DNA of 64,000 bases from Antedon mediterranea (taxonomy: Eukaryota; Echinodermata; Crinoidea; Comatulida; Antedonidae), in assembly GCF_964355755.1 (NCBI RefSeq), contig NC_092672.1:33848501-33912500 (forward strand), written 5' to 3'. The notes below the pieces were generated by a model. It saw only the letters and a list, made by a program, of their open reading frames with translations. It ran no database searches and had not been told where the DNA came from. Below are positions 27,301 to 63,774 of this stretch, piece after piece. The number at the start of each line of letters is the position of its first letter. Positions within the stretch are counted from its first letter, which is position 1. The translations under genes were made by a program, and so were the position numbers.

Positions 27301-29062
27301 TGAACGAAATGCTTATAAGAAATGTTCCCGCTGTGTTATAGTTATGTGCCTGTGATCTGTGTAACTATAGTTACTATAATTATGTATACCACCTCACCAT
27401 CTTGTACTTCCTACGTTTGTATCTCTCTTATTGTCCTTTTTATGATGTTTTTCCAAGTGTCACCAGTTGGAATTTTTATTTTTATCAATAAGTCGAAACG
27501 CCGTCTAGAAGTCCCGAGATTACTACACTATACATTTGTTGTGTTTTAGGTTTCCTCGATCAACATCAAACGTTAGACACATGGGGTGGACATGACGCAT
27601 CGTATTTAGAATTGAATTCAAATCATTATTTACTTGTGGTTGATTATCGTGAGCAACATAGTGTTGTAAACTCAACAGTATATAAATGGAATTTTAACAA
27701 TACCCAATTTGTAGAGTATGCTAAAATACCAGTTCGTGGTGGCCACAGTGGTAAACTATTCTCAATGAATGGTGTATTGTACGCGGCAATAGCAAACTAT
27801 CTCACAACAACGAATGAATACATGATTAAATCTCACGTTTGGAAACTAAAACAAGGTAAGTGAGATGCAATTTTAGAAACGTATAATGATCCTCGTTCTC
27901 ACTGCAGTCTCGAATGACAGAAGACAATAAGTGAGGCTATGCTTTTGTCAAATGCTAATAATTTAGCTAACAAACGACGTAAACCAGACCGACAAAGAGT
28001 CTGAGAATAGAAAATAACTTAGTTGGCGACGTGTCGGTGACAATTGACTGCGCGCGTGCCGCAGAATACATAATAATTGTGGTGTTACAGTTTAGTCCAG
28101 GCAGAAAATCGTACTTTATTGCCCACGTGCGCGTGAAATGCGCAGCATTTTCAGGGAATTCTATTCCATACTGTCACTTTTTAGGTGGTGTTACTGAACT
28201 AGTACAGTCACTTGACGAATCGGACGCAGGATCAACTGGAATCGATGCATTCACAAATGACGGAGATACTTTCCTAGTAGGTGTCAATAAATTGGGCATG
28301 GATTGTGCACAGAACACAATAGTTTATAGATGGGACAAGTCGACTAATGAATTTAAAATTCATCAACGTATTCCTGTTGAACATTGCGCCTACAGATCTA
28401 CCATTTTTAAGGTAAGTATAAAGTGCCCTTTTATTTTTACCATAAATAGCCAACGCCAAAAATTTTCACTTCAGACCAATCGAATGTAATACTCTACTTT
28501 CGAGTCCGAAACTTCGGTTGGACTGAATAAAGACAATGATTGAGTTGTGTGTCTACTGACAACGGTGTAGCTGGAAGTTATAGTAAAAAGACAAAAGTTG
28601 AGAAAGTATGGTTTTTTGAAAAGAAGGAGTGACCGCTTGTTGATTGATGGTAACAACATAGGAAAATATATTTGCAAAATAAAGGTGAGAGAGAAGAAGT
28701 GAATGGATAGAGAATTTGTATTCAATTGGAAAGGTGGACTAACTGAAGGCAAACAAGCGTCGTTCTATAGGAATTTCTACGATAATTAAGGACTTTTGGG
28801 AAATGAGCTGAACTTTTTCTGTTATTATAAAAGGTGCTAACATATAAAGCTTTATTTGTTTTATTAGTTGTAATGTCCCATAATGATAATATTGGGGTGT
28901 TTTTTGTTCGTGTTTTTACAGGTTGGCGGAGAAGTGTTTATAATAATAGCCACAACCAGATCGGAAAGAGGTGGAAGTAGTAATGATAAATATACTTCGT
29001 CATCTCCAATATTTAAACTCGAGGGTATAACTATGTTCATAAAATATGGAGCCATGACATAA
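24339..29062 (+). CDS. Copy C: MAM-less PAN-EGF-EAR propeller protein, C-terminally truncated
   Basis: Exons 24339-24689 (signal peptide ending near SCDA, PAN/apple), 24923-25049 (EGF, SYLGACQAKNKC), 25624-25726, 26446-26648, 27550-27855, 28185-28411 and 28922-29062 (EAR). Phases run 0, 1, 2, 1, 1, 0 and all junctions are GT-AG. This gives 485 residues. The EAR part is continuous: no MAM exons lie between the fifth and sixth exons. TAA at 29060-29062, where F has TCA, removes the last 41 residues, including blade 7. The former frame ran to TAG at 29183-29185 and is otherwise intact, so the loss is recent. The product may be secreted with an incomplete propeller, or this may be a new pseudogene. 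Confidence 0.75.
25331..25495. repeat. MITE with AGCTCTGTTTACACTA ends in intron 2 of copy C
   Basis: Ends AGCTCTGTTTACACTA and TAGTGTAGACAAAGCTT are near inverted repeats. The orthologous element in F is at 52565-52725. Related elements are at 34985-35100, 61465-61580 and 63775-63838. Confidence 0.6.
26957..27135. repeat. MITE with TCCGGCACAGTTCC ends in intron 4 of copy C
   Basis: TCCGGCACAGTTCC at one end and GGAACTGTGCCGGA at the other, with an inner palindrome around GACGCTCCACGCGG and CCACGTGGAGCGTC. The orthologous copy in F is at 54766-54944. Confidence 0.65.
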
Positions 29063-29690: not shown

Positions 29691-29919
29691 AGGGTTCTGG
29701 TAATGTCAAGAATATTCATCAGAAAAACTTGAGCATGCGTTTTTAATCATTTAAAAACAATATACAAAAACACAAAAGTGTTTTTTTTTTCTTTTATGGC
29801 TGTGTTGCAGAAAATGTCAACTTAGCACAGCAGCATTACCTAATGAATACCTTATATATTGGTTGTGTAAAACTTTAGCATTACTTAATGAATGCCTTAT
29901 ATATATTGATTGTTTAAAA

Positions 29920-32085
29920 CTTTTAGCATTATCTAATGAATAATTAAATACAAACTTTTCAGCATTATCTAATGAATAATTAAATACAAACTTTTCAGCA
30001 TTATCTAATGAATAATTAAATACAAACTTTTCAGCATTATCTAATGAATAATTCTATACAAACTTTTCAGCATTATCTAATGAATAATTAAATACAAACT
30101 TTTCAGCATTATCTAATGAATAATTAAATACAAACTTTTCAGCATTATCTAATGAATAATTAAATACAAACTTTTCAGCATTATCTAATGAATAATTCAA
30201 TACAAACTTTTCAGCATTATCTAATGAATAATTAAATACAAACTTTTCAGCATTATCTAATGAATAATTAAATACAAACTTTCCAGCATTATCTCATGAA
30301 TAATTCAATACAAACTTTTCAGCATTATCTAATGAATAATTCAATACAAACTTTTCAGCATTATCTAATGAATAATTCAATACAAACTTTTCAGCATTAT
30401 CTAATGAATAATTAAATACAAACTTTTCAACATTATCTAATGAATAATTAAATACAAACTTTTCAGCATTATCTGATGAATAATTAAATACAAACTTTTC
30501 AGCATTATCTAATGAATAATTAAATACAAACTTTTCAGCATTATCTGATGAATAATTAAATACAAACTTTTCAGCATTATCTAATGAATAATTAAATACA
30601 AACTTTTCAGCATTATCTGATGAATAATTAAATACAAACTTTCAGCATTTCTAATGAATAATTCATTAAAAACTTTTCAGCATTATCTAATGAATAATTA
30701 AATACAAACTTTTCAGCATTATCTAATGAATAATTAAATACAAACTTTTCAGCATTATCTAATGAATAATTAAATACAAACTTCTCAGTATTATCTAATG
30801 AATAATTAAATACAAACTTTTCAGCATTATCTAATGAATAATTAAATACAAACTTTTCAGCATTATCTAATGAATAATTAAATACAAACTTTTCAGCATT
30901 ATCTCATGAATAATTCAATACAAACTTTTCAGCATTATCTAATGAATAATTCAATACAAACTTTTCAGCATTATCTCATGAATAATTCAATACAAACTTT
31001 TCAGCATTATCTAATGAATAATTAAATACAAACTTTTCAGCATTATCTGATGAATAATTAAATACAAACTTTCCAGCATTATCTCATGAATAATTCAATA
31101 CAAACTTTTCAGCATTATCTCATGAATAATTCAATACAAACTTTTCAGCATTATCTGATGAATAATTAAATACAAACTTTTCAGCATTATCTCATGAATA
31201 ATTCAATACAAACTTTTCAGCATTATCTAATGAATAATTAAATACAAACTTTTCAGCATTATCTGATGAATAATTAAATACAAACTTTCCAGCATTATCT
31301 CATGAATAATTCAATACAAACTTTTCAGCATTATCTCATGAATAATTCAATACAAACTTTTCAGCATTATCTAATGAATAATTAAATACAAACTTTTCAG
31401 CATTATCTGATGAATAATTAAATACAAACTTTCCAGCATTATCTCATGAATAATTCAATACAAACTTTTCAGCATTATCTAATGAATAATTCAATACAAA
31501 CTTTTCAGCATTATCTAATGAATAATTAAATACAAACTTTTCAGCATTATCTAATGAATAATTAAATACAAACTTTTCAGAATTATCTAATGAATAATTA
31601 AATACAAACTTTTCAGCATTATCTGATGAATAATTAAATACAAACTTTTCAGCATTATCTAATGAATAATTAAATACAAACTTTTCAGCATTATCTAATG
31701 AATAATTAAATACAAACTTTTCAGAATTATCTGATGAATAATTAAATACAAACTTTTCAGCATTATCTAATGAATAATTCAATACAAACTTTTCAGCATT
31801 ATCTGATGAATAATTCAATACAAACTTTTCAGCATTATCTAATGAATAATTCAATACAAACTTTTCAGCATTATCTAATGAATAATTCAATACAAACTTT
31901 TCAGCATTATCTAATGAATAATTAAATACAAACTTTTCAACATTATCTGATGAATAATTAAATACAAACTTTTCAGCATTATCTAATGAATAATTCAATA
32001 CAAACTTTTCAGCATTATCTGATGAATAATTAAATACAAACTTTTCAGCATTATCTCATGAATAATTCATTAGAAACTTTCTTTA
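29920..32085. repeat. 36-bp minisatellite, about 60 copies
   Basis: Unit AATTAAATACAAACTTTTCA followed by GCATTATCTAATGAAT. Variants alternate at a few sites: TAAAT or TCAAT, TCTAATG, TCTGATG or TCTCATG, and TTTTCAG or TTTCCAG. Variant blocks recur (TTTCCAG units at about 31071, 31287 and 31431, 216 and 144 bases apart), showing higher-order duplication. The 36-base period keeps a repeating 12-residue minus-strand frame open; this is not a gene. Confidence 0.93.
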
Positions 32086-33720
32086 GATTCATAACAAAAA
32101 AAAACCGCTGCTTAGCCGTATATTTACTGTACACGGTAAATATAGTCCAGGCCTATAGCTTAATTTTAATTTCTGGATATTTCCGGAACAATTATGATTG
32201 AAATATAAAAATTGCATATTTTGTTAATTATTATATAAACTACTTAAAAGTACTTTCTTGAAATTGAACTTTTCGTAGTCCTATTTTGATGATATTAAAA
32301 ATAGTTGTTCAGAAATATCTTCTTGTTGTCAATTAATCATCGACGCAAACAATCAATAGAACAATCAATCTGCGCATACGTCGTCTGCATGTGTATCGTT
32401 TTGTTCATTCCCAACTTTCTATAAAGGGCCACGGTAAAAGACATGGTGATCAAAGAGCGTGTTTGTTTGATTGGCAGCAGTGCTTTAGCGCGTTTGGATA
32501 ATCGTTTGATCTCACCGCTGATGCATATCCTTGTGCTATGTTATCCATGGTAGACCTACAAGGACCGATGACTTGATATGATGTTTCCATTCCATTTCAA
32601 AATAACCCTGGTCAAGCCAACAAAACGAAAAAATGAAATTCATCTAAGACGTAACGCAAGTGAGTTAACCAATGACAGGCGATGGTTCGAATAATCTATC
32701 GCTTGTGATTGTTCAAATCTTTAAGTTGCGCAGTGGCTATGAGAAACAATTAGGCATTCAAGTATGTCGAAAAGGCTAAAAACGTCTAAGGTCTCCGGCG
32801 TCGGAATGTCACTTAGGGTTGCTAAACCACGGGCGTCAGGCATCTGTGTTGCGCCACTGGTCCGGTTAAACGCTATATAAGCTTTAAAATGTTTTCATAT
32901 TCAAATACATTACATTTTATTTATATTTTAAATAAAGTTCACGATACTAATTTTAGTGTTAACCTGTTACCAAATAATATGCTATGTTTGTTATTTTTAT
33001 TTATTGTTGACATGTTTCCGTCGTTCTGGACGACCGTTACTGCTTGTTTGTTATTTTAGTATTCATGTTCATGTTTTTGGAGAATATATAATTTATTATT
33101 TTCAAAACGCATAGTTAACAATCGTTTAATAGGCGTAGTGTGTAAATGGTCATAAGGAATAACATCTATATGTTGTATTACCGTTACCGCTCGCCTGTGT
33201 AAATTGACCTTTAGTTGGCTTTTACATTTTGTTTTTCATACGCGAAAACATTCATTCATTTTATTATTCCACATTTAATAAATCATAAAATATAGTTTAT
33301 TATCAAAAAAATCCATAGGAGCCAACTTAATAACTATCTGATGTATATTGATGGTTAAATATTTCTTGTAAGGTTTTTAATGATTTTGTTTAAGGATAAA
33401 TTATTCCAAAAAAAAGGTCCGTTAAAAATAAAGGAGTTTTTCCTGAGGGAACAAAAAGCTGAACATGCATTAGAACTATTATTTATCACCAGTCATTAGA
33501 TATCACTTTTCCATTAGGTAGAACCATGGAGAAATAAACTTATTTCTCCATGGTAGAAGCAAAGAGATGGTACAACTAATACCCAGTCGCAAGTGATGCG
33601 TAAGTAACCAATCAAATGGCAAGAATACACTCGTGTGTGTTAAATGTTGTTTATCAACTTCTTGTACTTTTAAATACGCAATAGTCACCACCGTTTTTCC
33701 GCAGTGCAATCGCGGCGCCT
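32086..33720. other. Intergenic sequence upstream of relic D and copy E
   Basis: No gene seen. Contains a fragment of the CAATGACA/GCGATGG inverted-repeat family (32640-32720) and a 14-bp-arm hairpin at 33523-33554 (ACCATGGAGAAATA and its inverse). The portion from about 33000 resembles 58130-58600, upstream of G. Confidence 0.55.
33523..33554. other. Perfect hairpin with 14-base arms
   Basis: ACCATGGAGAAATA, short loop AACT, TATTTCTCCATGGT. The homologous place upstream of G (about 58460) lacks the second arm, so this is a local palindromic duplication. Function unknown. Confidence 0.6.
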
Positions 33721-33847: not shown

Positions 33848-33910
33848 GTGGTGTTACTGAACTAGTACAATCACTCGACGAATCGGACGCAGCATCAACT
33901 ATAACCGATA
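33848..33910 (+). pseudogene. Relic D: isolated EAR exon fragment of the C/F type
   Basis: After CCCTTTAG the sequence encodes GVTELVQSLDESDAASTI, like the start of the sixth exon of C and F. It then breaks off into one 36-bp satellite monomer (about 33912-33935, AGCATTATCTAATGAATAAT) and sequence resembling the region upstream of G. No neighbouring exons remain. Just upstream (33760-33800) is a CAGACGCTTGCTAAGTGTAG segment like the G promoter region. Confidence 0.7.
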
Positions 33911-34179
33911 TACAGCATTATCTAATGAATAATTTATTTGCGATAATCACCATATGTTGTTTTATGTTTATCTTCATTATAAATAAATATTTATTGTAAA
34001 CATAGTTTATAGCATGTAGATTTAAAACAAGGCCATAAACATGGCTGCAGTCGATCGCGTACTCAAGTTAGTGTTTACCGACCGACCAACCATCCGACCG
34101 ACATAGTGAGCGACTAAAAAGGTTTGTTTTAATGGTCATAAAATAGAGGCATATTGTATAAAGGTTTGTGCAGTCATTT

Positions 34180-34338: not shown

Positions 34339-37300
34339 ATGTTCGAAACCAAGATATTTCAACTTGCAGTCTCGTGTCTTGTTCTACTGCCGTTAACTAA
34401 TTGTTACGCGTATGTGGAATGTGATATCAAGCCACCAGAAACGTCACCTTCTCACTTCTACGGACACGCTAACACAGCAATGTCAAACGAACTTGGCAAC
34501 TACAAGGCAACCCAATACGAGTGTATGCAGCTTTGTCGAAAGGACGCACGTTGCCTAGCTTTTACGTACGCTGCTGATACGCAAGGGTGCGCGACGTTTG
34601 ATCGGGATAGCGTCACCGGACCGGAACACATGGAGACGGTATCTGGTGTCTGGTTCTATGACATGCGACGAAAAAGAAAAGATTTTACTCGGGTAAGTTT
34701 AAAATGGAGTTTTCTCTTTCTACCCCATGTTTTTAAGTTTGTTGTGCGCTTTCTAATTTTGTTAATCTTACGATTTCCTTGGGATGCTAAGGCGAAAATG
34801 TTAGAATTTGTTTATTGGTTATAGAATTACATTGGGGCATGCCAAGCAAAAAACAAATGCGTCAACGGAGGCTTGTGTGTCAATGACTGTTCAGAACTGG
34901 GATACACCTGTGTATGTCCAACAGATTTTTACGGGAAGTTTTGTGAAAACAGTAAGTACAGTCCATAGTCTTCTCTTGCCTAAAGCTCTGTCTACACTAA
35001 TATGGTAGTGATATACCCAAATATGGTAGTGATATGATATCATAATGACCATATGGGCATATCACATTTTTTTCACATAAAGTTTTATAGTGTAGACAGA
35101 ATAATAACCTGTTTTCTACTAGGCGAATTTAGTCACGTGTATGCAATCGTTTCGCAGAGATATCGCGCTACCCTTTTCTAGTAGACGCTTCTTTCCGCGT
35201 GAATAAAATCGCGGAAGAAAAGAAAAGAAAAAGCGGAAAACAGGCTTAAATGGTCTTTCAAACTTGTTTTCACGTCCGGCGCTCCACGCGGCTATGCACC
35301 AATCGATATGCGCATAGCAACGAAACATTGACGTTCGATAAAACATTATTTTTTAAAGTTTTTTTAATCATTAATTCTGTACTTTGGATATCAAACAGAA
35401 ATCGATGAAATTAGACCCTAGCTATCACCTTGTTTATTAAATTTACAGTTGGTTATGCAGACCATTCTTATTTAGGCCGTGTATAATTTTAGCAGAGTTA
35501 AGCTCTCTGACACTTTAGATTGAATCTTTCAGAATTTATCCACGACTATGAGTTTAAATCAAACATTGTTGGTATATCATCAGCAAGCAATACGGCGTTC
35601 ACACACAAGAACAAACATTATCTTGTGATTGGCGGATTGTAAGTATCTTGAACTCGGACAAAAGGAATAAAATAACAAGTAAAACAAAGACCCAACGCTA
35701 TTCTTTAGGGCTATACTGTGTAACCTCTATTGTCATGCAAAGATGAGGAATGGTTCTCGAAACTCAAATTCAAGACAGTTTTTAATTAAACGCCTTTTTA
35801 TACTATTATTCTTATCTGTAATTTTGTTTAATGATTATAATTATTTTATTACGTGAAATCATTCAAACGCCTTGGTTCCCATTTGCGTCCAACACAAAGA
35901 CGAAGACGCAACGTAATTGATTTGACCAATCACAAGCGATGGATTGTACGAACTGTCTTTTGCCATTGGTCAATTGGCTTGCGTTGCGTATTATGTCCTT
36001 GCATTATAAGGGAACGGTCTGGAAACATTTGGAGTATTGAGGCGAGGTATTTTTTTTGTTTACATTTCAGTGATGGTTCTTGTGGAACTCCAATATACAG
36101 ATACAACAATACTAATAAACTGTATGAACATTACCAAGATTTGACTGGAACAAGTGATGTACAAAAAGTGGAGAATTTTAAAATAAATGAAAAACTCTAT
36201 ATTTTGTTTGTTGCGGACAGCAGAATAGTTTACGTCTACACATTTAACTCACAAACAGGTAAGGGTACTCTACTAATTATTGTATATTGATTGATTGATA
36301 TTGATTTATTGATTGGCATTAATTGATTGATATTGATTGATTGATATTGATTGGTTGATTTATATTGATTGATTGATATTGATTGATTGATATTGATTGA
36401 TTGATACTGATTGTATAATATATAATGTACCTCACTTTTTCGTTTTTCTGTCCAACTTACTCTGAAACATCCATCTTCACACACCCCTTTAATTTTTGTT
36501 CTATAAAAATATGTAATTTTATTCGTTTAAGGTTTTTTCGAACAACATCAAGCGATGGCAACACATGGCGCATGTGATGTATCGTATTTAGAATTGACTA
36601 TAAATCATTATTTACTTGTGACTAACGGAACATCATACGAAGTGAACTCAAAAGTGTATAAATGGAATTTTACCAGTAACCTATTCGTGGAGTATGCTCA
36701 GCTACCAAGTATTGGGTCTCTGAGTGGTAAACTATTCTCAGTCGATGGTATAATGTACGTGGCAATAGCAAATATAAACGGAACAGCAGCAGCAGCAGCT
36801 CCAGAGGTTTGGAAAATAAAAGAAAACTGTAAGTGATATAATGTTAATAATTTTATTTCCTTTCAGTTACATTATCATATAATGTACCTCATTTACGATG
36901 ACCAAATATATAGCTTGTCTCTTATCTGTGAATGTTTGTAAGGTGATGGTTAGTGGTGTTACGCATTGACGCCATATGGTGCTTACGCGAGGCAAGGTAT
37001 CATACATTATCAGTGAAAAATGCTAATTTATCGATTCAAATACAGGATATGTTTTTTATAGTTAATACAGATTTAAATAATGGTTTTAATGAATGGACTC
37101 AAGAAAATGATACGTCATCAATGGGTAAGTGCGTACAGGTTTGAGATTTAACGAAACAAATATTTCAAACATAAACAACGATTTGTCTAACATGAATTGG
37201 ACTGGTGTTTATGGTACGGATGATCCTAATATTGCTTTACTTTCATTTGAAACTGAATTCAAACGACTGTATGATAAACATTTTCCAATTCAAGAGCAGT

Positions 37301-39525
37301 CTGCAGGGAAAAAAAAAATAAAGACCTGGATGACGGATGAACTCTTAAATTCAATAAAGCATAAACAAAAACTGTATTCCAAATCCCTCCGCTATCCGAA
37401 TGACAAAAACATAAATGAATATAAGCAATTCCGTAACTCCCTTAACTCTTTAATAAAATTAACAAAACGCGATTATTATGAAAAAAAGTTTAAGCAGCAG
37501 AAAGATAATATCAAAGGAACATGGACAATTATAAATAGTCTCATAAAAACGAATGAAAGTAAGCATTTCGAAGAGTCCACTATAAATTGCGAAGGAAACT
37601 TAACGAATGATCCCAACATAATTTCAAATCATTTAAATAATGTTTTTGTTAATATTGGACCTACTCTCGCCAAAAATATAGACACATCTAATGCAAATTT
37701 TAAGGATTACCTCCCTCCGCCATCCATAAATTCTTTATTTCTCAATCCTGTGACTGCTTTTGAGATTATGGATATTGTTATGCGCCTCAAAAATAGTAAA
37801 GCACCTGGCATTGATGATATTAACCCGTCTATTATTAAACAACTTATCCCTTTTATTTCCGAACCCCTCTGCTACATTTTCAATCTTTGTTTTGTAAACG
37901 GCACCTTTCCTGACACCCTTAAACTAGCTAAAGTAACTCCTATTTTTAAAACTGGTGACAAATCTGATTCCAGTAATTACCGTCCTATATCAGTGCTACC
38001 GATCTTTTCCAAAATACTTGAACGCCTTATTTATGATCGAACATACAATTATCTTCAAAAAAATAGTATACTTTACAATAAACAATTTGGCTTTCGTAAG
38101 AACTATAATACATCCACCGCACTTCTTCAATTAACAAATGAAATTGTTGGGGCTTTCGAGAGGGCTGAATTTGCCATTGGTATTTTCATTGACCTCTCGA
38201 AGGCCTTTGATACAATTGATCACGATATTTTATTATATAAGTTACATACTTATGGAATCCGTGGCCCTGTATATAATTTATTCAAAAGCTACCTTTCAAA
38301 CCGCAAGCAATGCACTAAATTTAAACACACCCTTTCTGATTTTCTTCCTATTATTTGTGGAGTTCCTCAAGGTTCCCTGCTTGGGCCTCTATTATTTTTA
38401 TTATACATAAATGATATCCATAATGCCTCAAATATGTTTTCTTTTCTGTTGTATGCTGATGACACAACCCTTATTTACACTGATAAAAATATAGATTCCC
38501 TTTTTAAAATATCAACCGAAAATCTACCCAAAATTTTAACATACTTTTCTGCAAACAAACTTTCTGTTAATCTAAAAAAGTGCTGTTGTATGGTGTTCAA
38601 AAATTCACAAATACCACTAAATACTAGTACTTTTAAACTAAAAATTAAAGATCAATTAATACCTATTGTTGAGAAAACTAAATTTCTTGGTGTTTATCTG
38701 GACTGTAAGCTAAATTGGAAACATCAGATTACTCAAGTCGAAAACAAAATATCCAAAAGTTCTGGTATCATATATAGATTATCATCTTTCATCCCTCAAA
38801 ACATACTCCGGATTCTTTACTGTTCACTAATCCTCCCTTAACTCACTTACTGTAATATTATTTGGGGTAATACATACCCGTCCTACTTAAACAAACTGTT
38901 ATTGATCCAAAAGAAAACCGTAAGATACATTGCAAATGTTCCTCCTTTATCCCATTCCAATTCTTTATTTTCTTCATTTGGTCTTCTTAAAATTCAGGAT
39001 ATTAACCATCTTCAACAAAGTGTTTTCCTCTATTCATGGCTAAACTCGATCCTGCCATCACACTTTAATGATTTATTTAGTTTCAATCTTAATTTTCATA
39101 ACCACAGTACTCGGAGCGCAAATCAAATACGTATTCCTTTTTTTAAAACTACTTCTTTTAAACATAGCATTAAGTTCACTGGTCCTAAACTTTGGGATAA
39201 CGTACCAGCTAATATAAAAAGTGCTTTGTCTAAGAAGAGTTTTTCTTTTAAATTGAAACGGCACCTCTTATCTAGTTATGTTTAATTATCCTTTCACTCA
39301 TTGTAGTTTTGATATTTAGTCTTTTCGGTACCCTGAATCTAAAAGTCTTCATTACTGTTTTTGTCCTGTTTCCGGTTCCCGTGTTGTCCTGTTTTTTTTT
39401 TTTTTTTCATTTTCTATGGGCTGCCTTATACAAGCTTTGCTTTTTAGGAATGTTGCCCCTCTTATTTTAATCATTTTTACTGTTAATTTTTATTTTCTAT
39501 GAAAGACAAGAGAAATAAATGTTAC

Positions 39526-39559
<34 letters not shown>

Positions 39560-42500
39560 ATAGAAACGTATTGTAGTGATCCATCCTAGAGTTTGGTTGC
39601 AAAGGAAGCACTTCCGGTTCCTTGAGATCTAATGAATATACTAAAACCATGGAGAAATAAGAGTTTGGTTGCAAAAGAAACAATTCCGGTTCATTGAGAT
39701 ATAATGAATGTACTAAAACTAATTCTATTTTAATACAGTAAAATATTTTTAAAGACCCATTGCCTACAAGTTGTGACTTTTTGTAAAAATAATGCATATA
39801 TATGCTTTAAAATCATTAAACCAGGTCATTCCTTGTCCTAATTGTACGTTTTATGGTATGATAAGAAGAGAGAAACAATGCACTACCCAAGTAGATCGCG
39901 GTAAATGTTCTCTCGTGGACGGTCTTTAGGCCTAGCCTAGCTAGGCTTGTTTTGTAGGCCTAGCTGGTAAACATCGCTAAAATGATTAGAATCGACTTAT
40001 TTTTCACATTTTTAGTCGCATGCAACGCGACTCCACAGCTCACTATGTCGGTCGGCTGATCGTCGGTCGATTGGTCGGTAAACACTAACTCAAATTTGAG
40101 CACGCGACTGCAGCCATGTATATGATCTTGTTAACCGTTAAAAGAAGAAAAAAGGTATCTGAATAGGACCATAGTATCTACTTTTACATTAAATGTAGTT
40201 TGTGACCTTTAGATCTATAAAACGTATGGAATGGGACTTTAAGTTTCGGCAAAACAAGCATCATAGAACTCGAATTCTCTGTTGTTTAGTTTGTTTATTT
40301 CCAAATACATAGAGGATTGTCATTTGTTTATTGTTTCACTTTTTCAGTTTTACTCCAATTTATGTTTTATTTAGTACCGTTTTTCTTAGTTAAAACAGAT
40401 TTCCAGACAGGTTTTGATAGCTGGGCTCAAGAAAATAATGATGACTTTGATTGGACACGGATGAACGGTGCAACAGGCTCAATAAACACTGGACCAACAA
40501 ACGGCCATACAGGAGGTACAGAAAAGTTTGTAGGTGCTAGTGATTGGAGTTATTGGTTATTCTATTTTTAATACAGTTAAATATATTTGTACTCAATTTC
40601 AAAATACCATTTTGTTTATTCGAACATACTTAGGTGATTATTATGTTTATATTGAAACAACATCGCACACAATTGGGATGTCAGCTCGCCTAAGAAGTCC
40701 ATTGTTATCATCAGGGCAGCAGATATCTTTATCATTCTACTATCACATGTACGGAAATACTATTGGAACACTCAATGTTTACAGAACGTCAAACCTGGGT
40801 GACGAACTGTTATGGTCAAGAAGCGGTAACCAAGGAGATTCATGGCGTTATTCTGGTACAATACAATGTACACACAATGGTTATGGAAACAACTACATTG
40901 TGTTTGAAGCAATTAAAGGGAGTTCCCATACTGGTGATATTGCAATTGATGACATTCAATATAATGATGGTATGTAACTTTGAAATGTTGTGATATATTT
41001 GTTTAAAGATTATGGAATTACAGTACTGTTATTACGGTACATATTACTAAAATAAAAAAAAAACATCTTGTAACCCATTTCTTCTGGTACAGGTCTGGTA
41101 GCCGGAGAATAAATCTTGTAAAAGAATAGAATATTTTACACACAATATCTTGCGTCTACGGGTTGTGGCCAAAATCTACAGCCCAGGGTTTTTGTCCATT
41201 TATGCTTATTCTGTATGAACATTTTCTTTATAGTTCAAACAGATTTCCAGACAGGTTTTGATGGCTGGGCTCAAGTAAATAATGATGGGTTTGATTGGAC
41301 ACGGATAAAAGGTGCAACGAGATCAACAAACACTGGACCAACAGACGGCCATACAGGTACATACAAGTTTGTAGGTGATTGGAGTTATTGGTAACTCTAT
41401 TTTTGATACAGTACAGTAAAATATTGTACTAAATTTCGAAATACCATTTTGTTTATTTCAACAGATTATTATATTTATATTAAAACATCAAATCCAATAA
41501 CTGAAGGGATGTCAGCTCGCCTGAGAAGTCCATTACTATCAAACAGCCAAAGTACTGTATCTTTATCATTCTACTATCACATGTACGGAGCTACTATTGG
41601 AAAACTCAACGTTTACAGAACGTCGAACTTGGGAGACGAACTGTTATGGACAAGAAGCGGTAATCAAGGAGATGTATGGCGTTATTCTGGTGCAATACAA
41701 TGTACATACAATGGTGATGAAGAAAACTACATTGTGTTTGAAGGCATTAGTGGAAGTTCCAATACTGGTGACATTGCTATTGATGACATTCAATATAATG
41801 GTGGTATGTAACATTAAAATGATGTATTTTTTTGTTGAGATTATGGGATTGCATCACTGTTTTACTACAGTACATATTATTAACAAATAAAAAAGAATGT
41901 CTAGAAAACTCACATATCTAGTTTCTAGTTTATTTCTGCTATTAGAAAAATCAGACAAACTAAATAAATTGTTCCATTAGTAATCAGAGGGACTAAAACA
42001 GTACTATATACCTTTTTTACTTGGCAAATTAGAATCTTTCTTAAGTTGCTAATAAGTATAAGTATAGTACTTACTCTGTTTGTTCACACGATGCGTCCAC
42101 AATTTATCGTCTTGAATAACTGATAAACTGATAAAAATACTTTATTGCAACTTTTGGGTTGAATTATACAAAAATATATACTTATACTTAAATAAAAAAA
42201 TATATCAAATCCATCAACGATATAAATCAAATAACACAAAAACATCGAACAACAGACAAACTGAAGTCAAGTCAGGGAACGAAGCGACTGTGCAGGGATA
42301 TATATGTATGCTTACCACTTGTGAAAGAGACCAAAGTTTACAATAAAATTTTTTGATCGTTCCGTTTTTATTTTTGGAATGCAAAATTCTTTAACTTGTC
42401 TTAAATTGTATCTAGATTTGGGCGCTTTTGGAAGAAGGTGATGTAGTCTATGGGAAGGGTTTTTAAGTTTCTGATAGTAATCCTTGCACAGTCTAGTTCG

Positions 42501-45500
42501 ACGTTCACATAGCACAGGCACATTACATTGAGCCATTGCTTTGTTGTAACTGAGCTCTGGGAACGTGATTCTAAGCGCCCTTCGTTGGATACTTTCCAGT
42601 TGGTCAGACTGCAATTTAGTTAAGCACGTTCCCCAAACGGGGACGGCGTATTCTAGTACAGGTCTGATAACACAACAATAGAAATAGCATAAGGCTTGGG
42701 CGTCTAGACCTGACCGGCGCAATTGTTTAAGGAAATATAACCGTGAGTTTGATTTAGCTATCAAAGACTCAATATGGGGTTGCCATGATAAATTGTCACA
42801 TATAATAATTCCAAGGAGCTTAGTACGGCAAACCTGGTTAACACTACATTTATTAATAATTAGAGGATTAAATATCGACTTGTTTTTCTTACAACTCACA
42901 ATTAATTCACATGTTTTTTTAGCATTGAGGGTCATATGGTTAAGCCGAGTCCATGCAAGGGCCGAGTTAGCTATATTTTGCAAGTTACTATTGGACAGTT
43001 TAGACACCCTTTCGAATACAGTAGTATCATCCATAAATTTAACACATGGTTTACCATTTAAAAGGTCATTGATAAAAATAATAAACATAATAGGGCCAAT
43101 CCACGACCCCTGGGGTATGCCTCCGTTTGGCGATAGCCATTCAGAAAGACTATCACCAATTTTAACACGTTGTTGTCGGTTATACAGGAAGGCATTAACC
43201 CATCGGATCAGGTGACTATCAACCCCCAGCGCAATGAGTTTGTTTAAGAGAATGTTGTGGTCGATCAAATCGTAGGCCTTTTTAAAATCCAATAATAAAA
43301 CTCTAACCTCTTCGCCCGCATCAGTGGCAAGGAAACAAACATTAAGGAATTCAATTAAGGCGTCAACCGTAGAAACACCTTTACAACAACCAAATTGGTT
43401 TAGGTTAATCTTATCCTTAACTTGGTGCCAGATCATTTCGCCCACTAGGCTCTCAATTACCTTTGCCATTATAGGAGTTAAAGCTATTGGGCGGAGATCA
43501 CTTTCGACCAACTTTGGGGGAAACACTTTTGGGATTGGGACAATATTGGCTCGTTTCCATTCTTGGGGAACCCATCCGTTTCTAACACTTGAGTTAGCAA
43601 TAGCACATAAAGGACCACTAAGAATCTCAGCACCCTCTTTAAACACCCGGGGGGGAAGGTCATCTGGACCAGGGGCTTTATTACATTTAATTTGATTAAG
43701 TTTAATCCTGACAGTTTCCAGCTCTATGATAAGGTGACTAGGGATTTCATCAATATCTAATAGTGGATCTAGGGGAGGGAGGGGGTTAAATTCCGTGGTC
43801 AATGAGGCAAAAAATTGATTAATTTTATTTGAAAGCAAGGTATTATTGCCGTTACACAGCAAATTTGACATTCCTACAAGTGCATGATTTTCTTTGCATC
43901 CTAGATTGAGAAACCTTTTGGTGTGTTTCCACCAGGATCGGGAATCCGAATTCAAGAGCTTAGCTACATTGTTTTTGTAAAAAGATTTACGTAGGGATTT
44001 TGACATCCGGTTAACTTTGTTTCTCAGTGAGCGGAACTCAATAAGATTTCCTTCCTTAAAAGCAATTTGACGTTTACGAATAAGATTCTTGTATTCGGAA
44101 GTAACCCAGGGTTTATCCATCACATACTGTGTTAAGGGAACAAGGGGAAAATGATGGTTATATAAAGATTGTAACTTATCATTAAAAAACTTAAATTGAC
44201 TATAACAATCATTTAACTTATACATATCATGCCATCTAATACTACAAATGTCCTCAAAAAACAAAAGTTTATTGTTCAGTTTAAACAACCTCTTAAGGCT
44301 CTTGTTAGTGTAGTAGTGATCAAGTTTCACATTTGCGACCGGCTTGCAGATAACTACCCTATGGTCCGAAAGGCCAAGAGGAGGCTCGGTGATAGGGGCC
44401 AAATAAAACTCTCCCAATGACGTATAAAACAAATCGAGAATCGCTTCCTTTCTTGTGGGTATTTTAACTAGTTGCTTTAGCGGGAACTTTACCAATTTAT
44501 AGTCCTTCATGCGGTTAAAATCACCAGTAATCACGATGCCGGTTTCCGGGTGCTTTGAGCACACATAATCAAGACTGTGAATAATATGGTTGCACATTTC
44601 TAAATCATTTGAATTTGGAGGGTGGTAGATCAATCCTATGGTTATATTCGCGATTTTGCGTGGCAAGCGTTTGGGACGAATGGTTATCCATATACTCTCG
44701 AATGCTTCATCCTTAATTTCTGACCAAACTTTATAAGGAATTGAGTCTTTCACATATACGACTACTCCTCCGCCTCTTCTATCGCCTGGTCTATCTGATC
44801 TAATAAGAGAGTAGCCTTCAATTTCCACAATCGTATTTAAAATAAATGGTTTGAGGTGAGTTTCCGTAATTGTAATGATGTCGTAGGCAGATTGTTTAAC
44901 TCTATGGACAAGTTCGTCCATTTTGTTTGGTAGCGATAGAGCATTAGTACTAAAAAACGAAGGAAAATTCCACCCAGTATATTGTTGAGCGAGATGAACA
45001 AGGTTGTTAGGGTTACATCCACTGGAACCTTTTCCACACTGCCTATGGTTATGTCTTGAGGATATCCTAACTGGTATTACTCTCTGTTTGAATCTACCTC
45101 CACGACAACCGCGATGGTGGGTGGCTAGAATTCCCAGCTCTTTAAGAGAAACGAATACATCCTTGCTTAGTTTAGCGTCGGAATGCTTATAGCCTGCGAT
45201 ACGCTCTCTACTGAAACACATTGTTATGCAAATGAGGATCACTGGAATGCTCCGTCAGGACAAGCCTCTCCACCACTGCAACGTTTCCGGCGAATCCGAG
45301 ATGTTATATGTACCAACAATGGGCCTAGCTTTAGTACAGTTCCAACTTGACAATTTTAAGACAGCACAAACAAAGTTTCACCAAACAAATCACATCACCA
45401 CAAACAGACAGTTAAATGCAAACAGAATGTTTTGGTGTTAATAGGTATAGGCCTATCACTTACAGAACACGCTTTAAATGTATTCATTGGTGACGCCACA

Positions 45501-48286
45501 AAACTCTACATTAAATCTGATATAGTGCAATCCATTTAGTGGTGGTTTGAATTTTATATTAGCGGAATAAACATACAACTACAGATCTGAGAAAAATATG
45601 TCAGTTTTTTTTTCTAAAGCGATATAGGCTACTGTAGGAACTGTAGTCGTAATCAAAAAACCATCTACCTATCATAAAGATCAGATTTCATATTAAAGTA
45701 TCGTTGTGTGTTTGCTGCGGCAATTTTTTTTTTCAATTTCCCTTTTTTATTTTTATGAACATTTTTCTTTTAGTTCAAACAGATTTCCAAACTGGTTTTG
45801 ATGGTTGGACTCAAGGATATCATTGGACACGGAGATATGGTTCAACAAACACTGAACCCGCAAACGGTCATTCGGGGAATACAAGTAAGTGTATATAGGT
45901 ACATGTAATAATGTTATTGATGCAGTTGAATATTAGACTAAATTTCTGCAAGATCAGAAATGTATATGAAGTTATAATGTTTAATTTTTACATAGATGAT
46001 TATTATGCTTACATTGAAACATCACCTGTAAGTGCTGAAAGGTCAGCTCGCCTAAGAAGTCCGGTTCTGCCAAAAAGTCAATATGTATATTTATCATTTT
46101 ACTATCACATGTACGGCGGAGCTACTATTGGAACACTTCAGGTTTACAGAAAAGCAAACGTTGGGAACAGACTGTTATGGACAAGAAGCGGTAACCAAGG
46201 GGATGCATGGTATTACGCTGCAGTACAATTTGAGCAAACTAGTGATGGAGACAACTACATTGTGTTTGAAGGCATTAGTGATATTGCAATTGATGACATT
46301 CAATATTGCTGCAGTAGTATGTATACTTTAAAATGTTGTTAGTAAGGATTAATTATACAGTACTGTGGGCCTAACTATCCTGCATACTATCGTACTTAGA
46401 TTTCCTAAAACATTTGTATTTTTATTGTACAAAATTTTAATATTAATTATTTCTTTCTGTACAGATTATGTTGCCCGTTTATCTAAAAAAGTCGAATCTG
46501 AATAATTTTCAAAATTTCCAAATGTATTTACATAATAAAATCTGGCCATAGATTGAGCGGTGTCACTCAATCAACCAACCGTGACGTCATGAAATACGCC
46601 ATTTTGTGAATTCACCGTTTCAATTATATATCCATAACCACTTGTCAGATTTATAAATAAAATTCACTACGAGTAAACTTCAGATTAATGTTCAACATAT
46701 ACCCACAACAAATGTACGTATACGCAAGATAATTGGTGAGCAATCGCAAATCAACATTTTGTTTAAATGCTCAAAATCAAATTTTAGCGTTTGAATTTTT
46801 TCGCGTCGCGCAAACATTTTCTTTGCGGACAACATAGATGTAAAGCAAAAATAATTATTATACATGCCCTTTTTTCTTCAGCCCTATAGTCATATATTCC
46901 TATATATAATTTTCATGAAGAGAAAATGTGAATGAAAGACACGTGTAAAAGCGTGCGCTCACCAATAGGCAATTGAATGCAAATTTATATAAAAACATAC
47001 CTATTTTGAATAGCTCTTCAGAATGAATGGTGACCCACAATAGTGTTTTAAACTTATTTAAAAATCCAGGTCATATGATGTCACATAGATTAATGTACGT
47101 GCAAGATCACTTATGGAATTAAATTCTAGTTATTACTCTCATTTGTAAACTGTTTTAATTTTGTCACTCACTAGGCGCTTTCTGGGCAACTGGAATCGAG
47201 ACATTCACAAATGATGGCGATACTTACTTAGTAGCTGTGAATCCATTGGAATGTGCACATACCATAATGGTGTATAGATGGGATAAGATGTCTGAAGAAT
47301 TTAAAATTCATCAACATATTCCTGTGGAGCATTGTCCCACGAAATCTACGATTTTCAAAGTAAGTACCACCCCTGTGAATCAGTCTCCTCATTTTCACAC
47401 TACTACAAAATTACATGGCAAAATAACATTGAAATACACTACTTGTTTTCTGGAAATTGAAAAATTGACCGAATGAAATGGTTCAATATAATAATTATTC
47501 TAATGTTGAAATTTCTGATGTAAAAAAGTTTAAAACGTGTTACTTTCTCTGATTGATGATCTTTGTGACTTTTTGCAGTTTTTTCTAGATCTGTATTAAG
47601 TATTATTATAACAACTAAATAAATTCCTGTCATTTGATAGGACAATTGTGGGTCACATGGCGTGCAATAGTACGAACTATTAAACAATCGTTTAATAGTA
47701 CTTTTTTTCGTGTACGAAAAAAAATCTAGGCCATTAGGTATTAGGCCTAGGCATTTTAGCCTTTTGCTATAATTCATTGACAAGAACCTATTTAGATGTT
47801 TTAGATTCACAACTAATGAATGTTTTATATTCGTGTAATAGTACAAATAATTGCATTTGGTAAATGATTATATATCAACTCGGCTTCGCCTCGTTGAAAA
47901 AATAACCTTTTCATCCTTCACCTCATGCCATTGTTTGTACCATTACGCTCAACAACATTCATTATTTGTATATTTTATATTGTGTTCTATGTCAATGAAG
48001 ATGTTTTTTATATTTACAGGTTGGCGGAGAAGTATTTATGATAATAACCACAAGCAGAACGGAATCACGTGATTCTGATGACAATTTTGAACTCTATACT
48101 CCATCATCACCAATAATTAAATTAGAAGGGAGTATGTTCGTAAGTTACGGAGCCATACCATCACACGAATGTTATGATATAACATTTTTTGAGCGAGATG
48201 GGGAGTACTTTTTGGGTCAGTCGAATAAACGAAATGTTAGTGGTGGCATAACTAATCCAACCTTCAACATATACCAATGGGTGTAG
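34339..48286 (+). CDS. Copy E: intact PAN-EGF-EAR-MAM secreted protein with MAM domains inside the EAR propeller
   Basis: Fourteen exons: 34339-34692, 34825-34951, 35533-35638, 36071-36258, 36532-36828, 37062-37124, 40390-40515, 40634-40969, 41234-41356, 41465-41803, 45774-45884, 45996-46316, 47175-47359, 48020-48286. All phases agree and no frame stop is present: 980 residues. Signal peptide about 1-24, PAN/apple 27-110, EGF 119-160, EAR blades 1-4 about 161-357, a short MAM N-terminal stub 358-378, three MAM domains (379-532, 533-686, 687-830), then EAR to the end. MAM hallmarks are FDWTR, YYHMYG, IGTLNVY, SGNQGD and IAIDDI. It has no transmembrane segment, so it is likely secreted. Two LINEs sit in introns 6 and 10. 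Exon ends are inferred from consensus and paralogue comparison. Confidence 0.85.
34985..35100. repeat. MITE with GCTCTGTCTACACTA ends in intron 2 of copy E
   Basis: TCTGTCTACACTA and TAGTGTAGACAGA are exact 13-bp inverted ends; the inside has two ATATGGTAGTGATAT units. The orthologous copy in G is at 61465-61580. It is absent from intron 2 of B. Confidence 0.65.
36280..36420. repeat. GATTGATATT simple repeat in intron 4 of copy E
   Basis: Tandem ATTGATTGATATTG units; a longer version is in intron 4 of G (62670-62890). B lacks it. Simple sequence, no gene. Confidence 0.8.
37129..39285 (+). pseudogene. LINE reverse transcriptase with in-frame stop
   Basis: The open frame 37129-38841 continues in the same frame at 38902-39285 after TAA at 38839-38841. 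RT motifs: YRPISVLPIFSKILE, FIDLSKAFDTIDHD, GVPQGSLLGPLLF, LLYADDTTLIYT (catalytic YADD). The C-terminal region FTGPKLWDNVP is typical of the family. The first few codons belong to the host exon-intron junction, not the element. Dead because of truncation and the stop. Confidence 0.85.
37145..39556 (+). mobile_element. 5'-truncated LINE (CR1/L2-like) in intron 6 of copy E, with GATT-repeat tail
   Basis: Begins in the C-terminal side of a LINE ORF just after the exon 6 donor and ends with AAATAAATGTTACTTT followed by at least six GATT units, the microsatellite tail common in CR1/L2 elements. The endonuclease is missing. Inserted in the sense orientation. Intron sequence homologous to B resumes near 40210; 39557-40210 is further insertion-derived or diverged sequence. 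Confidence 0.75.
42110..45500 (-). mobile_element. LINE with complete endonuclease and RT frame, intron 10 of copy E
   Basis: Antisense non-LTR element. A minus-strand AATAAA (42141-42146) and TTATCAG repeats mark the 3' end near 42110. The frame 42312-45242 is uninterrupted. Exact ends are not seen; the insertion lies between exon 10 and exon 11 of E. It is the best preserved LINE in the window. Confidence 0.75.
42312..45242 (-). CDS. LINE ORF2: AP-type endonuclease and reverse transcriptase, 976 codons
   Basis: An uninterrupted frame. Endonuclease about residues 95-310: ITITETHLKP (catalytic Glu), RGGGVVVYVKD, GIVITGDFN, LGLSDHRVVI (SDH motif). RT about 505-790: NKAPGPDDLPPRVFK, LRPIALTPIMAKVIE, LLLDFKKAYDLIDHN, GIPQGSWIGPIMF and KFMDDTTVF. 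The catalytic box has Met (FMDD) where many LINEs have Ala. A C-terminal ALRITFPELSYNKAM segment follows. The N-terminal 60 residues are basic (HRGCRGGRFKQR) and may include ORF1-like sequence. It nicks DNA and copies its own RNA in the nucleus. Whether it is active cannot be judged here. Confidence 0.88.
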   Translation of the reverse strand: MILICITMCFSRERIAGYKHSDAKLSKDVFVSLKELGILATHHRGCRGGRFKQRVIPVRISSRHNHRQCGKGSSGCNPNNLVHLAQQYTGWNFPSFFSTNALSLPNKMDELVHRVKQSAYDIITITETHLKPFILNTIVEIEGYSLIRSDRPGDRRGGGVVVYVKDSIPYKVWSEIKDEAFESIWITIRPKRLPRKIANITIGLIYHPPNSNDLEMCNHIIHSLDYVCSKHPETGIVITGDFNRMKDYKLVKFPLKQLVKIPTRKEAILDLFYTSLGEFYLAPITEPPLGLSDHRVVICKPVANVKLDHYYTNKSLKRLFKLNNKLLFFEDICSIRWHDMYKLNDCYSQFKFFNDKLQSLYNHHFPLVPLTQYVMDKPWVTSEYKNLIRKRQIAFKEGNLIEFRSLRNKVNRMSKSLRKSFYKNNVAKLLNSDSRSWWKHTKRFLNLGCKENHALVGMSNLLCNGNNTLLSNKINQFFASLTTEFNPLPPLDPLLDIDEIPSHLIIELETVRIKLNQIKCNKAPGPDDLPPRVFKEGAEILSGPLCAIANSSVRNGWVPQEWKRANIVPIPKVFPPKLVESDLRPIALTPIMAKVIESLVGEMIWHQVKDKINLNQFGCCKGVSTVDALIEFLNVCFLATDAGEEVRVLLLDFKKAYDLIDHNILLNKLIALGVDSHLIRWVNAFLYNRQQRVKIGDSLSEWLSPNGGIPQGSWIGPIMFIIFINDLLNGKPCVKFMDDTTVFERVSKLSNSNLQNIANSALAWTRLNHMTLNAKKTCELIVSCKKNKSIFNPLIINKCSVNQVCRTKLLGIIICDNLSWQPHIESLIAKSNSRLYFLKQLRRSGLDAQALCYFYCCVIRPVLEYAVPVWGTCLTKLQSDQLESIQRRALRITFPELSYNKAMAQCNVPVLCERRTRLCKDYYQKLKNPSHRLHHLLPKAPKSRYNLRQVKEFCIPKIKTERSKNFIVNFGLFHKW
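46420..47150. other. Intron 12 of copy E: inserted sequence without genes
   Basis: Copy A has only 127 bases between the matching exons, so about 0.7 kb has been gained here. AT-rich, no recognisable element ends or frames. Confidence 0.5.
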
Positions 48287-48334: not shown

Positions 48335-48560
48335 ATATTGCATCATCGCCGCCAATATTTAAACTGGACGGAGGTTTGTTCGTAAATTAGGGAGCCATAA
48401 CGTCATATAACTGTTCTTACAACATTCTTTAAGGAGATAGAAAGGGAGTACTTTTTGAGGCAGTTCATGGCGAAGGAACTACATTTCTTTCTCAGTTGAA
48501 TAAACAAAGTGTTTAGTGGCATAACTAATCCAAACTTCAACGTATACCAATGTGAGTGTG
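48335..48560 (+). pseudogene. Degenerate second terminal EAR exon downstream of copy E (best preserved)
   Basis: CATCATCGCCGCCAATATTTAAA, then GGGAGCCATAACGTCA, GAGATAGAAAGGGAGTACTTTT, GTGGCATAACTAATCCAAAC and ATATACCAATG-like TATACCAATG follow in the order of the real terminal exon. Frame lost through indels. Same relic as after A and B. Confidence 0.65.
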
Positions 48561-52898: not shown

Positions 52899-53662
52899 TC
52901 TGAGCCACTGTTTAAGCAATTAAATATACTTAACATACAAGATATCAACAGAGTTACCGTCCTAGGTTTCATGGCCCAGATTAAAAGCAATGTTTTACCC
53001 AGACGAATCCAAATGATATTCAAAAGAAACGAAAATACTACCCATAATCTTCGAAATATTTGTAGCGTAAAACAACCATACTCTAGGTTAACGTCTGGTC
53101 AACATTTTATCAGTATTCACGGACCGAAACTATAGAACGAGCTCTGTAGAAATCACTTAGATATTGTTAACAAAAATTATAAAATACTAAAAAAATATGT
53201 AAAAAGATACATTTTATCGAATTACAGAACTTAAAATGCTTCACTCATAAAATTTAGATGCATACATTATGCATTTGTGTTGGTGTGTGCGAGTATACAC
53301 ACATAGCCTGTTTTATATTATATGTATTCATACTTTTGCTATAATATATATAGAAAGAATCCACATGTACTGGAAGTAATAAACTGAATATCTTCTTTTT
53401 TAAGACAAAATGTATAAATAATCATGTTAGAAAAACAGTATCGCTTTTTGATGATGAACAACTCTAAAATGTATATAGGAAATGTTTTTTTTTTTATTTT
53501 GTATCTATTATGTTGTGTTTATTGTTTTATGTTTTTTATGTAAAAGGGTCCTGCGAAAACAGAAGTGTAAACTTCTCTATCCAGGATCCTTGCCATCATT
53601 TATGCTATGAAACTGTATTTATAAACGATGAGTAAATAAATGTGAATTGAATTGAATTGAAT
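52899..53662 (+). mobile_element. 3' end of a LINE inserted in the third coding exon of copy F
   Basis: The interrupted exon is 45 + 58 = 103 bases, exactly the length in C. The insert starts with the C-terminal part of a LINE ORF (SEPLFKQLNILNIQDINR, then ISIHGPKL, as in the other LINEs here), has a 3' UTR, and ends AAATAAATGTGAATTGAATTGAAT, a GAATT tandem tail. Strongly 5'-truncated, sense orientation. Confidence 0.85.
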
Positions 53663-54944: not shown

Positions 54945-57394
54945 AAACTAGTTTTCTAAAGCTTTACGATGATGTCTTATCACTTACCATATTTGGGAAC
55001 ATCACTCCTTTTTGTCAAACTAGTTTGATAGTGTACACATATACTGTACAATGTTACTGTGTCCATATTGGGCATTTTTGTATGTGACAGAGAGACTGTG
55101 TAAACAGAGCTTTAGGTTGTGAACGAAATGCTTATAAGGAATATTCCCGCTGTGTAGTATAGTTAGATATTAATACCACCTCACATACGTTTGTATCTCT
55201 CTTATTGTCCTTTTTATGATGTTAAATATTATTTTTTACAAGCGTCACCACTTGGAATTTTTATTTTTACCAATAAGTCGAAACGCCGTCTAGAAGTTCC
55301 GAAATTACTATACATTTGTTGTGTTTTAGGTTTCTTCGATCAACATCAAACGATTGACACATGGGGTGGACATAACGCATCGTATTTAGAATTGAATTCA
55401 AACCATTATTTACTTGTGGTTGATTATCGTGAGCCACAAAGTGTTGTCAACTCAACAGTGTATAAATGGAATTTTACCAATAACCAATTTGTAGAGTATG
55501 TTAAGATACCAGTTCATGGGGCAAAGAGTGGTAAACTATTCTCAATGGATGGTGTGTTGTACGCGGCAATAGCAAACTATTTCACAACGACGAATGACTA
55601 CACAATTAAATCTCACCTTTGGAAACTAAAACAAAGTAAGTGAAATACAATTTCATAAACGTATATTGTTCTTCACTGAACACAAAATGAACGAACAACA
55701 TCCAAAGTGAGGAAAAGTAGAACGTTTTGACCCTATTTTGGCAAACTAACATGAATCGAAGATGGCGTATAATGTTTAAAGTTTATATAAACATTTTTTC
55801 AGTCATTGTGATACCTCATGCAGTAGGAAAATGTGTATATCGAACAACCGTACAAACTCTGAGTGAGTGTCGATGATGAGAATTGACCGAGCGTGTCGCA
55901 GTATATAATAGCTGTTTTTGTCTCTAGTGCAGGGACTAGAGTCGTGCATGTTCCGCTTTGCGCATTAAACGTCTGACTAAAAAAGCCTGCTCTACTGTTG
56001 CTCCCCTTAGGTGGTGTTACTGAACTAGTACAATCACTCGATGAATCGGATGTAGGATCATGTGGAATCGACACATTCACAAATGACGGAGATACTTACC
56101 TAGTAGTTGTCAATAGATTGGATTGTGCACAGAATACAATTGTGTATTGGTGGGACAAGTCGTCTGAATTTAAAATTCGTCAACGTATTCCTGTGGACCA
56201 CTGCCCATCAAGATCTACCATTTTCAAAGTATGTATATAATTATTTTGACTGTAAATCAGACAAATCGACAAAACACGGCTGCATTATTTTGTTTCCTAT
56301 AAGGTTAAGGCAGAAACCATGCCGTGAATAATGAATGAGAATAATTATTTTCCATGATAAAGGTGACCTATTTCCCAAATATAACTGAACCTACCCTCTA
56401 AATAATCTCTCTTAAACTATTAAATTGACATCTAACCAAGGGCTCTTAGTTCCTTAGACTTTTTAAAGTCGATAACGTATAGAACATATTTTTCTGTTAG
56501 CTTGGTCGTAATGATAATATTAGGGACTTTAAACACGATGGTTAAGAGAGAACGACGAATATCCTGTGTTCGCTAGAGAACGTAAAATCGTATACAGTCA
56601 ACATAGCCGTTTTATTAGTTACGAACCCTTCGCGAAGAGGACGACCGGCAGTATTTCTCTCTCTCCCCTGTCTCGTGGCGCGAGGCCCTTCTGAATCGCT
56701 CGGCTCTGACAGGTGATACAGCATAGGTCTAACCTCGCTTTTAAAACAGCCATTTTAACCCAATAAAAATTTCATTAAACAATTAAATTAAAAGTTAAAA
56801 TATTATTTGGAGTTTTGAAAATTCCACGTTTAAGTGTAATTTGAACTGTATGTATAGGTTATACATGTTTTCTAGTGGTTCTCCGTAAACGGGAAAATCG
56901 CAACTTCTAGTTCTCAAAAAGTTAAATACGACGGAATTTCAGACTAAGCTCCACCCACTTTGTTAAAGCTCATGCATACATTATTGAGCACCGTCCTATG
57001 GCTTCCCGTCGTGTTTCGTAAAGTCGCTATTGTTTTTACGGGTTGGCGGAGAAGTTTTTATGGTAATAACCACGACCAGAATGAAGTGGGATACAAGTGA
57101 TAATAATAATAATATCTATACTTCGTCATCGCCAATATTTAAGCTTGAGGGCACTATGTTCGTAACATACGGAGCCATGACGTCACATGTATGTAACGAT
57201 ATAACATTTTTTAAGCGAGATGGGGAGTACTTTTTGAGTCAGTCGAATCATCGAAATAATAATAATGGCATGGTCAATCCAAAGTTAAACATATACCAAT
57301 GGGTGTAGTTGTAGGCCCTTCTGTCATGCCTGTGACTTATTGATCTAAGTAAGGAAAACAGAAATTACTAAAAACGTTAATCTATTGTTATTTG

Positions 57395-63640: not shown

Positions 63641-63774
63641 GTAAGTGCGTACAGGTTGAAAGAAATTGCATTACGATCCATCCATCATCCATCGCAGGGT
63701 TTGGTTTTAAAGAAACACTTCCTGTTTTGCTTCCGTTGAGAGCTAATCAATGTAATAAAAAAGGTTGATACAGT

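Follow-up and report, generated by a model that had tools for sequence, protein, structure and literature searches.

Three MAM domains are encoded inside the coding sequence of an EAR beta-propeller in gene E of Antedon mediterranea, at a joint in blade 4 where related genes without MAM have a phase-1 intron. The strand that normally follows this joint, strand D of the blade, is lost in all five intact genes that carry the insert. These observations are probably best explained by the entry of MAM exons into an existing phase-1 intron that maps to the rim of an LGI1-like propeller; the outer strand would then have been lost or exchanged for another, and the propeller would still close with the MAM domains as a side arm. 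The preliminary description had proposed that MAM domains were inserted into blade 4 of the EAR propeller by shuffling of symmetric exons; we confirmed its observation in part, and its interpretation was supported in part.

Exon structure of gene E

The stretch of DNA analysed here (the window) has 64,000 nucleotides and corresponds to C3:33848501-33912500 in a genome of 354 Mb. Gene E, at 34339-48286 on the + strand, was read as 14 exons with GT-AG splice sites and a single open frame of 980 codons (Table 1). Its product consists, in order, of a signal peptide, PAN, EGF, four EAR blades of which the fourth is incomplete, a short stub, three MAM domains and three further EAR blades. Pfam detected MAM in three stretches (8.5e-86), EPTP in five (9e-25), and PAN (5.7e-8). 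The small EAR0 exon is required in frame, because it takes phase 1 to phase 2. The expected seven EAR units were found by a strand-by-strand reading, provided that this exon is counted. As had been described, seven extra exons, all flanked by AG and GT and all of phase 1-1, occupy the boundary between the EARb and EARc exons and encode the stub and the three MAM domains. For the first exon of MAM1 and of MAM2, the splice donor was picked by homology to better sites in paralogs; alternative donors, located after FVG, are likewise of phase 1.

The introns between the MAM exons hold two LINE-type retrotransposons with long open frames, at 37129-39285 (+) and 42312-45254 (-). Both encode reverse transcriptase, and the second also encodes an endonuclease, with 980 aa open. 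Degenerate second copies of the last EAR exon were seen downstream of gene E (48343-48550) and of gene B (14740-14887).

Table 1. Exons of gene E and parts of the neighbouring genes, in window positions
Feature	Positions	Strand	Phase	Basis or remark
E exon 1: signal peptide and PAN	34339-34692	+	0-0	open frame, donor GT, Pfam PAN_1 5.7e-8
E exon 2: EGF-like	34825-34951	+	0-1	Pfam EGF under the curated cut-off
E exon 3 (EAR0): closing strand and start of blade 1	35533-35638	+	1-2	conservation among paralogs, frame, alignment with the start of LGI1 EPTP
E exon 4 (EARa): last part of blade 1 and the bulk of blade 2	36071-36258	+	2-1	
E exon 5 (EARb): blade 2 (end), blade 3, blade 4 (strands A-C)	36532-36828	+	1-1	ends VWKIKEN
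E exon 6: stub, a truncated first MAM exon	37062-37124	+	1-1	DNA identity to first MAM exons
E exons 7-8: MAM1	40390-40515, 40634-40969	+	1-1 each	
E exons 9-10: MAM2	41234-41356, 41465-41803	+	1-1 each	
E exons 11-12: MAM3	45774-45884, 45996-46316	+	1-1 each	ends CCSS
E exon 13 (EARc): blade 5, blade 6 (start); strand D of blade 4 lacking	47175-47359	+	1-0	starts SAFWATG
E exon 14 (EARd): remainder of blade 6, strands A-C of blade 7, stop codon	48020-48286	+		
Gene M2 (A), 3' end: last MAM exon, EARc 250-443, EARd 677-943	1-943	+		whole gene intact
Gene B, MAM-type	4276-14724	+		broken: stop in EARb (11819-11821), frameshift in EARd near 14584
Gene C, uninterrupted joint: EARb, then directly the EARc exon with GVTELVQSLDES	27550-28411	+		GVTELVQSLDES is strand D of blade 4
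Gene F, uninterrupted joint as in C	55330-56228	+		broken elsewhere
Gene G, first exons; MAM-type	60640-64000	+		intact, 847 aa, continues beyond the window

Plain and MAM-bearing copies in one array

The array was read with exon queries over 131.5 kb of contig C3. The PAN-EGF-EAR genes there are in tandem, all in one direction, and about half of them carry two or three MAM domains in blade 4. N1, N2, N3, C and F are without MAM (plain), and M1, M2 (also called A), B, E, G and H have it; M1 and H lie outside the window, and M2 and G extend past its ends. Five of the MAM genes (E, G, M1, M2 and H) are intact and open over 825-981 codons. The exon order, phases and open frames of the other four match those of E, with two or three MAM domains. 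A second array, again a mixture of MAM-bearing and plain genes, lies on C4 at 19.85-20.28 Mb, and the MAM arrangement recurs in it. Because four more intact genes on C3 and the C4 array have the same junctions, the MAM-in-EAR arrangement is no chance reading.

Genes C and F had been taken as the references for the uninterrupted joint. The plain joint is indeed present in both, where an exon ending in VWKLKQ or LWKLKQ is followed directly by GVTELVQSLDES, but both genes are broken, and the intact plain gene N1, outside the window, serves instead. Gene C has an in-frame stop in its last exon (29060-29062). In gene F, the EAR0 exon is split by the 3' fragment of a LINE (52899-53660, about 760 bp, with a GAATT-type repeat end) and also has a stop, and the acceptor of the last exon is ACGG, compared with ACAG in the others. 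B, C, F and N3 are damaged copies, and LINE insertions are present in the array. Pairwise dN/dS was 0.43-0.64 for all parts, insert and propeller alike; values near 0.6 indicate loose constraint, like that of fast-evolving extracellular proteins, and are blurred by gene conversion in the array.

Seven EAR units and a propeller of the EPTP/EAR kind

Written in strands, plain N1 reads D, then ABCD six times, then ABC. In the LGI1 propeller, the N-terminal strand and the last three strands together form blade 7 (PMC5906670), and the strand order and count of N1 are those of LGI1. By strand count, N1 and other plain genes agree with seven four-stranded blades, the N-terminal strand being part of blade 7; blade 4 of the MAM genes has its strand D either missing or replaced.

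The EARb exon, which precedes the insertion, was folded using an alignment of nine paralogous exons. The model shows strands A-D and then A-C, with a mean pLDDT of 78 and a pTM of 0.72. Since the model ends with strand C, the insertion comes directly after strand C of blade 4. When the model was compared with the PDB, LGI1 EPTP chains took Foldseek ranks 1-3, and structural superposition again put LGI1 EPTP first (Z 10.6, rmsd 1.7 A over 78 residues), with Lis1 and other WD40 propellers close behind (Z 9-10). The near equality of the WD40 matches means that the propeller fold is sure and that the closeness to LGI1 leans on sequence too. EPTP was above the curated Pfam cut-off in E and also in N1 (3.5e-28), and the EAR0 exon aligned with the start of the LGI1 EPTP domain. 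Against the PDB, the first half of E matched at 3e-14 and the whole N1 propeller weakly, at 6.5e-4. The full-length EARc exon folded alone gave a model of low confidence (pLDDT 61.9).

The LGI1 EPTP/EAR propeller (PDB 5Y2Z, 5Y31, 9KZC) was the best match in both sequence and fold, sharing the EAR repeats, the seven units and the N-terminal strand that finishes the last blade. In LGI1, however, LRRs precede the propeller and there is no insert, whereas in the E family PAN and EGF come first and a string of MAM domains sits in blade 4. In E, Pfam found PAN and EGF in place of the N-terminal LRR domain of LGI proteins, and gave no match to the thrombospondin-type laminin G domain that stands at the N-terminus of TSPEAR. 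We concluded that the propeller is of the EPTP/EAR kind and that the protein is neither an LGI nor a TSPEAR.

Loss of strand D at the joint in blade 4

In plain genes, the exon after the joint opens with the outermost strand (D) of blade 4, which reads xxELVQSLDES. The same exon opens with (S)AFWATG, NESDAFWPTG or NESNTFWATG in the intact MAM genes. Gene E was therefore not found to resume with GVTELVQSLDESDA, as had been supposed, since its exon 13 starts (S)AFWATG. Nor is blade 4 simply interrupted, because strand D is gone in all five intact MAM genes. In the joint alignment, the plain genes read TCACTTGAC, TCACTCGAC, TCGCTGGAC or TCACTCGAT within the EARc exon, and M2, B, G, H and the C4 gene in locus L016 read TCACTAGAC at that site. 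The acceptor of the MAM genes, common to them, thus sits inside the old plain exon (TCACTxGAC changed to TCACTAG/AC, the slash marking the splice point), and TCACTAGAC supplies the acceptor CTAG and keeps phase 1. The EARc exons of E and M1 are 9 bases shorter still at the 5' end.

In four of the five intact MAM genes, in-frame stops lie at most 20 codons upstream of EARc. To look for a hidden exon encoding strand D, we searched all three forward frames of the interval that separates the EAR exons on either side of the insert in each of the five MAM genes; no match to ELVQSLDE there had fewer than four mismatches out of eight. Taken together, the upstream stops, the lack of similar coding sequence and the joint alignment indicate that strand D was lost in the MAM branch. 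The boundary intron is of phase 1 in the non-MAM relatives that were read, including an older plain gene at C3:31.22-31.24 Mb, and the plain joint in N1, N2, N3, C, F and this older gene indicates that the plain state is ancestral. Since D lies outermost in a propeller blade, its loss should disturb the ring least.

A copy of the ELVQSLDE type at 33850 was considered as the missing strand D of gene E and rejected, as it is an orphan fragment upstream of the start codon of E. Orphan starts of plain EARc exons (GVTELVQSLDESDAAS), at 33850-33960 and in locus L009 near 4680, lead into sequence resembling the repeat unit (QHYLMNN) of a large minisatellite at 29817-32201. The repeat may have its origin near the plain EARc exon.

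The stub exon

The start of the stub has about 80% DNA identity with first MAM exons. Every MAM gene read on C3 has retained the stub, as have two on C4, and in the five intact MAM genes it is in frame with a length constant to within one codon. Its position is that of the missing strand D, for which it may be a substitute.

A stricter form of the explanation favoured above is that the stub, (F)NTDFNNGFDEWTQENVDTSSM, is a new strand D pairing with strand C, which would complete blade 4 and leave the MAM domains suspended between blades 4 and 5, much as the integrin alpha-I domain is between blades 2 and 3. Its location exactly at the gap, its reading xFDEWTQ (compare FVEYAQ in blade 3), and its retention in frame at near-constant length in the five intact genes and on C4, with a dN/dS of 0.43 (few sites), argue for this form. 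The stubs of the MAM genes were scored with a position matrix built from the other blades. They scored -3 to -9, where the null had a median of -9.6 and a 95% point of -1.9, and a shuffled stub did as well in 26% of trials; the score is thus no better than chance, although the test has little power because even the genuine strand D of blade 4 reaches no more than -5.7. We regard the stricter form as possible and hold it tentatively. If it applied, a fragment of the incoming domain would have taken over a host strand: a truncated MAM exon would be strand D of blade 4, and the blade a chimera of two unrelated domains, with the states before and after the change standing together in the array. 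Such a takeover is conceivable, at the same tentative level.

Phases, cysteines and source of the MAM insert

All exons of the insert are of phase 1-1 in the five intact genes, and the phase-1 target intron is present in plain genes. Symmetric exons at a single EAR boundary agree with exon shuffling, as had been suggested, and the boundary intron has the same phase in the plain relatives. The symmetry of the seven exons also means that any subset of them could be skipped in frame, and the main product of E could then be an EAR protein without MAM domains, if the MAM exons were mostly skipped or alternatively used. We consider this improbable. Skipping keeps the frame, as had been predicted, but does not restore the ancestral blade: VWKIKEN would be joined to SAFWATG, with strand D still absent. 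The MAM exons are, moreover, open with correct splice sites in five genes.

The three MAM stretches are over the Pfam cut-off, and their relatives in the PDB include MDGA1 (1.5e-24). The N-terminal motif of MAM domains is CDFE...CxW. The insert shares tandem MAM domains and, by sequence, the MAM fold with the arrays of MDGA1, neuropilin, enteropeptidase and RPTP mu, but the cysteines of the motif are absent in the E family, where the whole insert has 0-2 cysteines ahead of the final CCS. The adjacent cysteines of this CCS, at the joint between MAM and blade 5 (E 46307-46316), are kept in E, G, M1, M2 and H despite the cysteine-poor MAM domains.

The genome is rich in MAM genes, including multi-MAM ones. 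In the genes on C6 at 24.30-24.33 Mb, the MAM is likewise encoded by two exons with phase-1 borders, and a protein search placed them among the closest MAMs outside the two arrays; these genes are plausible donors of the MAM exons. A gene piece made up of one MAM and the final two EAR exons recurs on several contigs at a distance from the arrays, its copies being about 98-99% identical (C1:9005642, C1:12361072, C1:2890882, C4:14750092 and C10:12282800; loci L016, L017, L018 and L021). A gene at C4:20.13 Mb is its likely source. With LINE sequence adjoining it, the piece looks like the result of a recent mobilisation of just those exons.

Discussion

Starting from an expanded family of secreted PAN-EGF-EAR proteins, with an LGI1-like seven-bladed propeller whose N-terminal strand closes blade 7, one branch would have received symmetric phase 1-1 MAM exons, most likely from multi-MAM genes, in the phase-1 intron that separates strand C from strand D in blade 4. 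The following exon would then have lost its first part, which encoded strand D, with the new internal acceptor preserving the phase. The resulting fold is most likely a closed propeller, in which blade 4 would consist of three inner strands, or of these with a substitute outer strand derived from the stub. The MAM string would exit and re-enter at the rim of blade 4 in the manner of a side arm, which may serve in extracellular recognition or adhesion. Later tandem duplication and exon exchange would have produced paralogs with zero, two or three MAM domains.

With a linker of about 450 residues, the protein could also form two separate incomplete propellers, or a smaller closed one, in place of one seven-bladed ring around the insert. 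Against this, about 3.75 blades precede the insert and 2.75 follow it, neither of which is a known whole, and the closing strand of blade 7 lies at the N-terminal end; such an outcome is unlikely. That E is a decaying by-product, with a MAM gene and EAR pieces adjacent but transcribed apart, or with the locus dying, might be suggested by the many broken copies and LINE insertions in the array (B, C, F, N3), but is very unlikely, as decay would not leave one frame over 12-14 exons with the right splice sites and phases at both joints in five copies.

The explanation by insertion into the propeller with closure retained has parallels in known systems. Class 1-1 exon shuffling (PMC8001218) brings symmetric 1-1 exons into a phase-1 intron with the frame kept, and the same was found in the E family; the target intron of this family, however, interrupts a folding unit instead of marking the edge of a domain, and the joint has cost the host some of its coding sequence. 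In alpha-I integrins, a vWFA domain is inserted after blade 2 of a seven-bladed extracellular propeller in some paralogs only (PMC12422189). The likeness is one of arrangement, an inserted domain on a seven-bladed extracellular propeller in part of the paralogs. It is not one of membership: the propeller is of another type, Pfam found MAM only and no vWFA in the E insert, and the insertion follows strand C of blade 4 with loss of a host strand, whereas in integrins it comes right after the end of blade 2. In the literature searched, we found no description of an EAR and MAM architecture, which does not by itself prove that there is none.

Symmetric exon phase alone is no proof of an intact host fold, and this calls for caution. 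The MAM-bearing propeller is a clear natural case of domain insertion into a closed fold, a type of event already familiar from integrins. Domain insertion into closed folds is usually seen after the fact, with the alpha-I integrins as the textbook case. In this crinoid, plain and inserted paralogs stand in one array. Because their sequences reveal the target intron and its phase as well as the new splice site and the missing strand, the way in which a propeller comes to accommodate a loop of about 450 residues can be tested step by step on real sequences.
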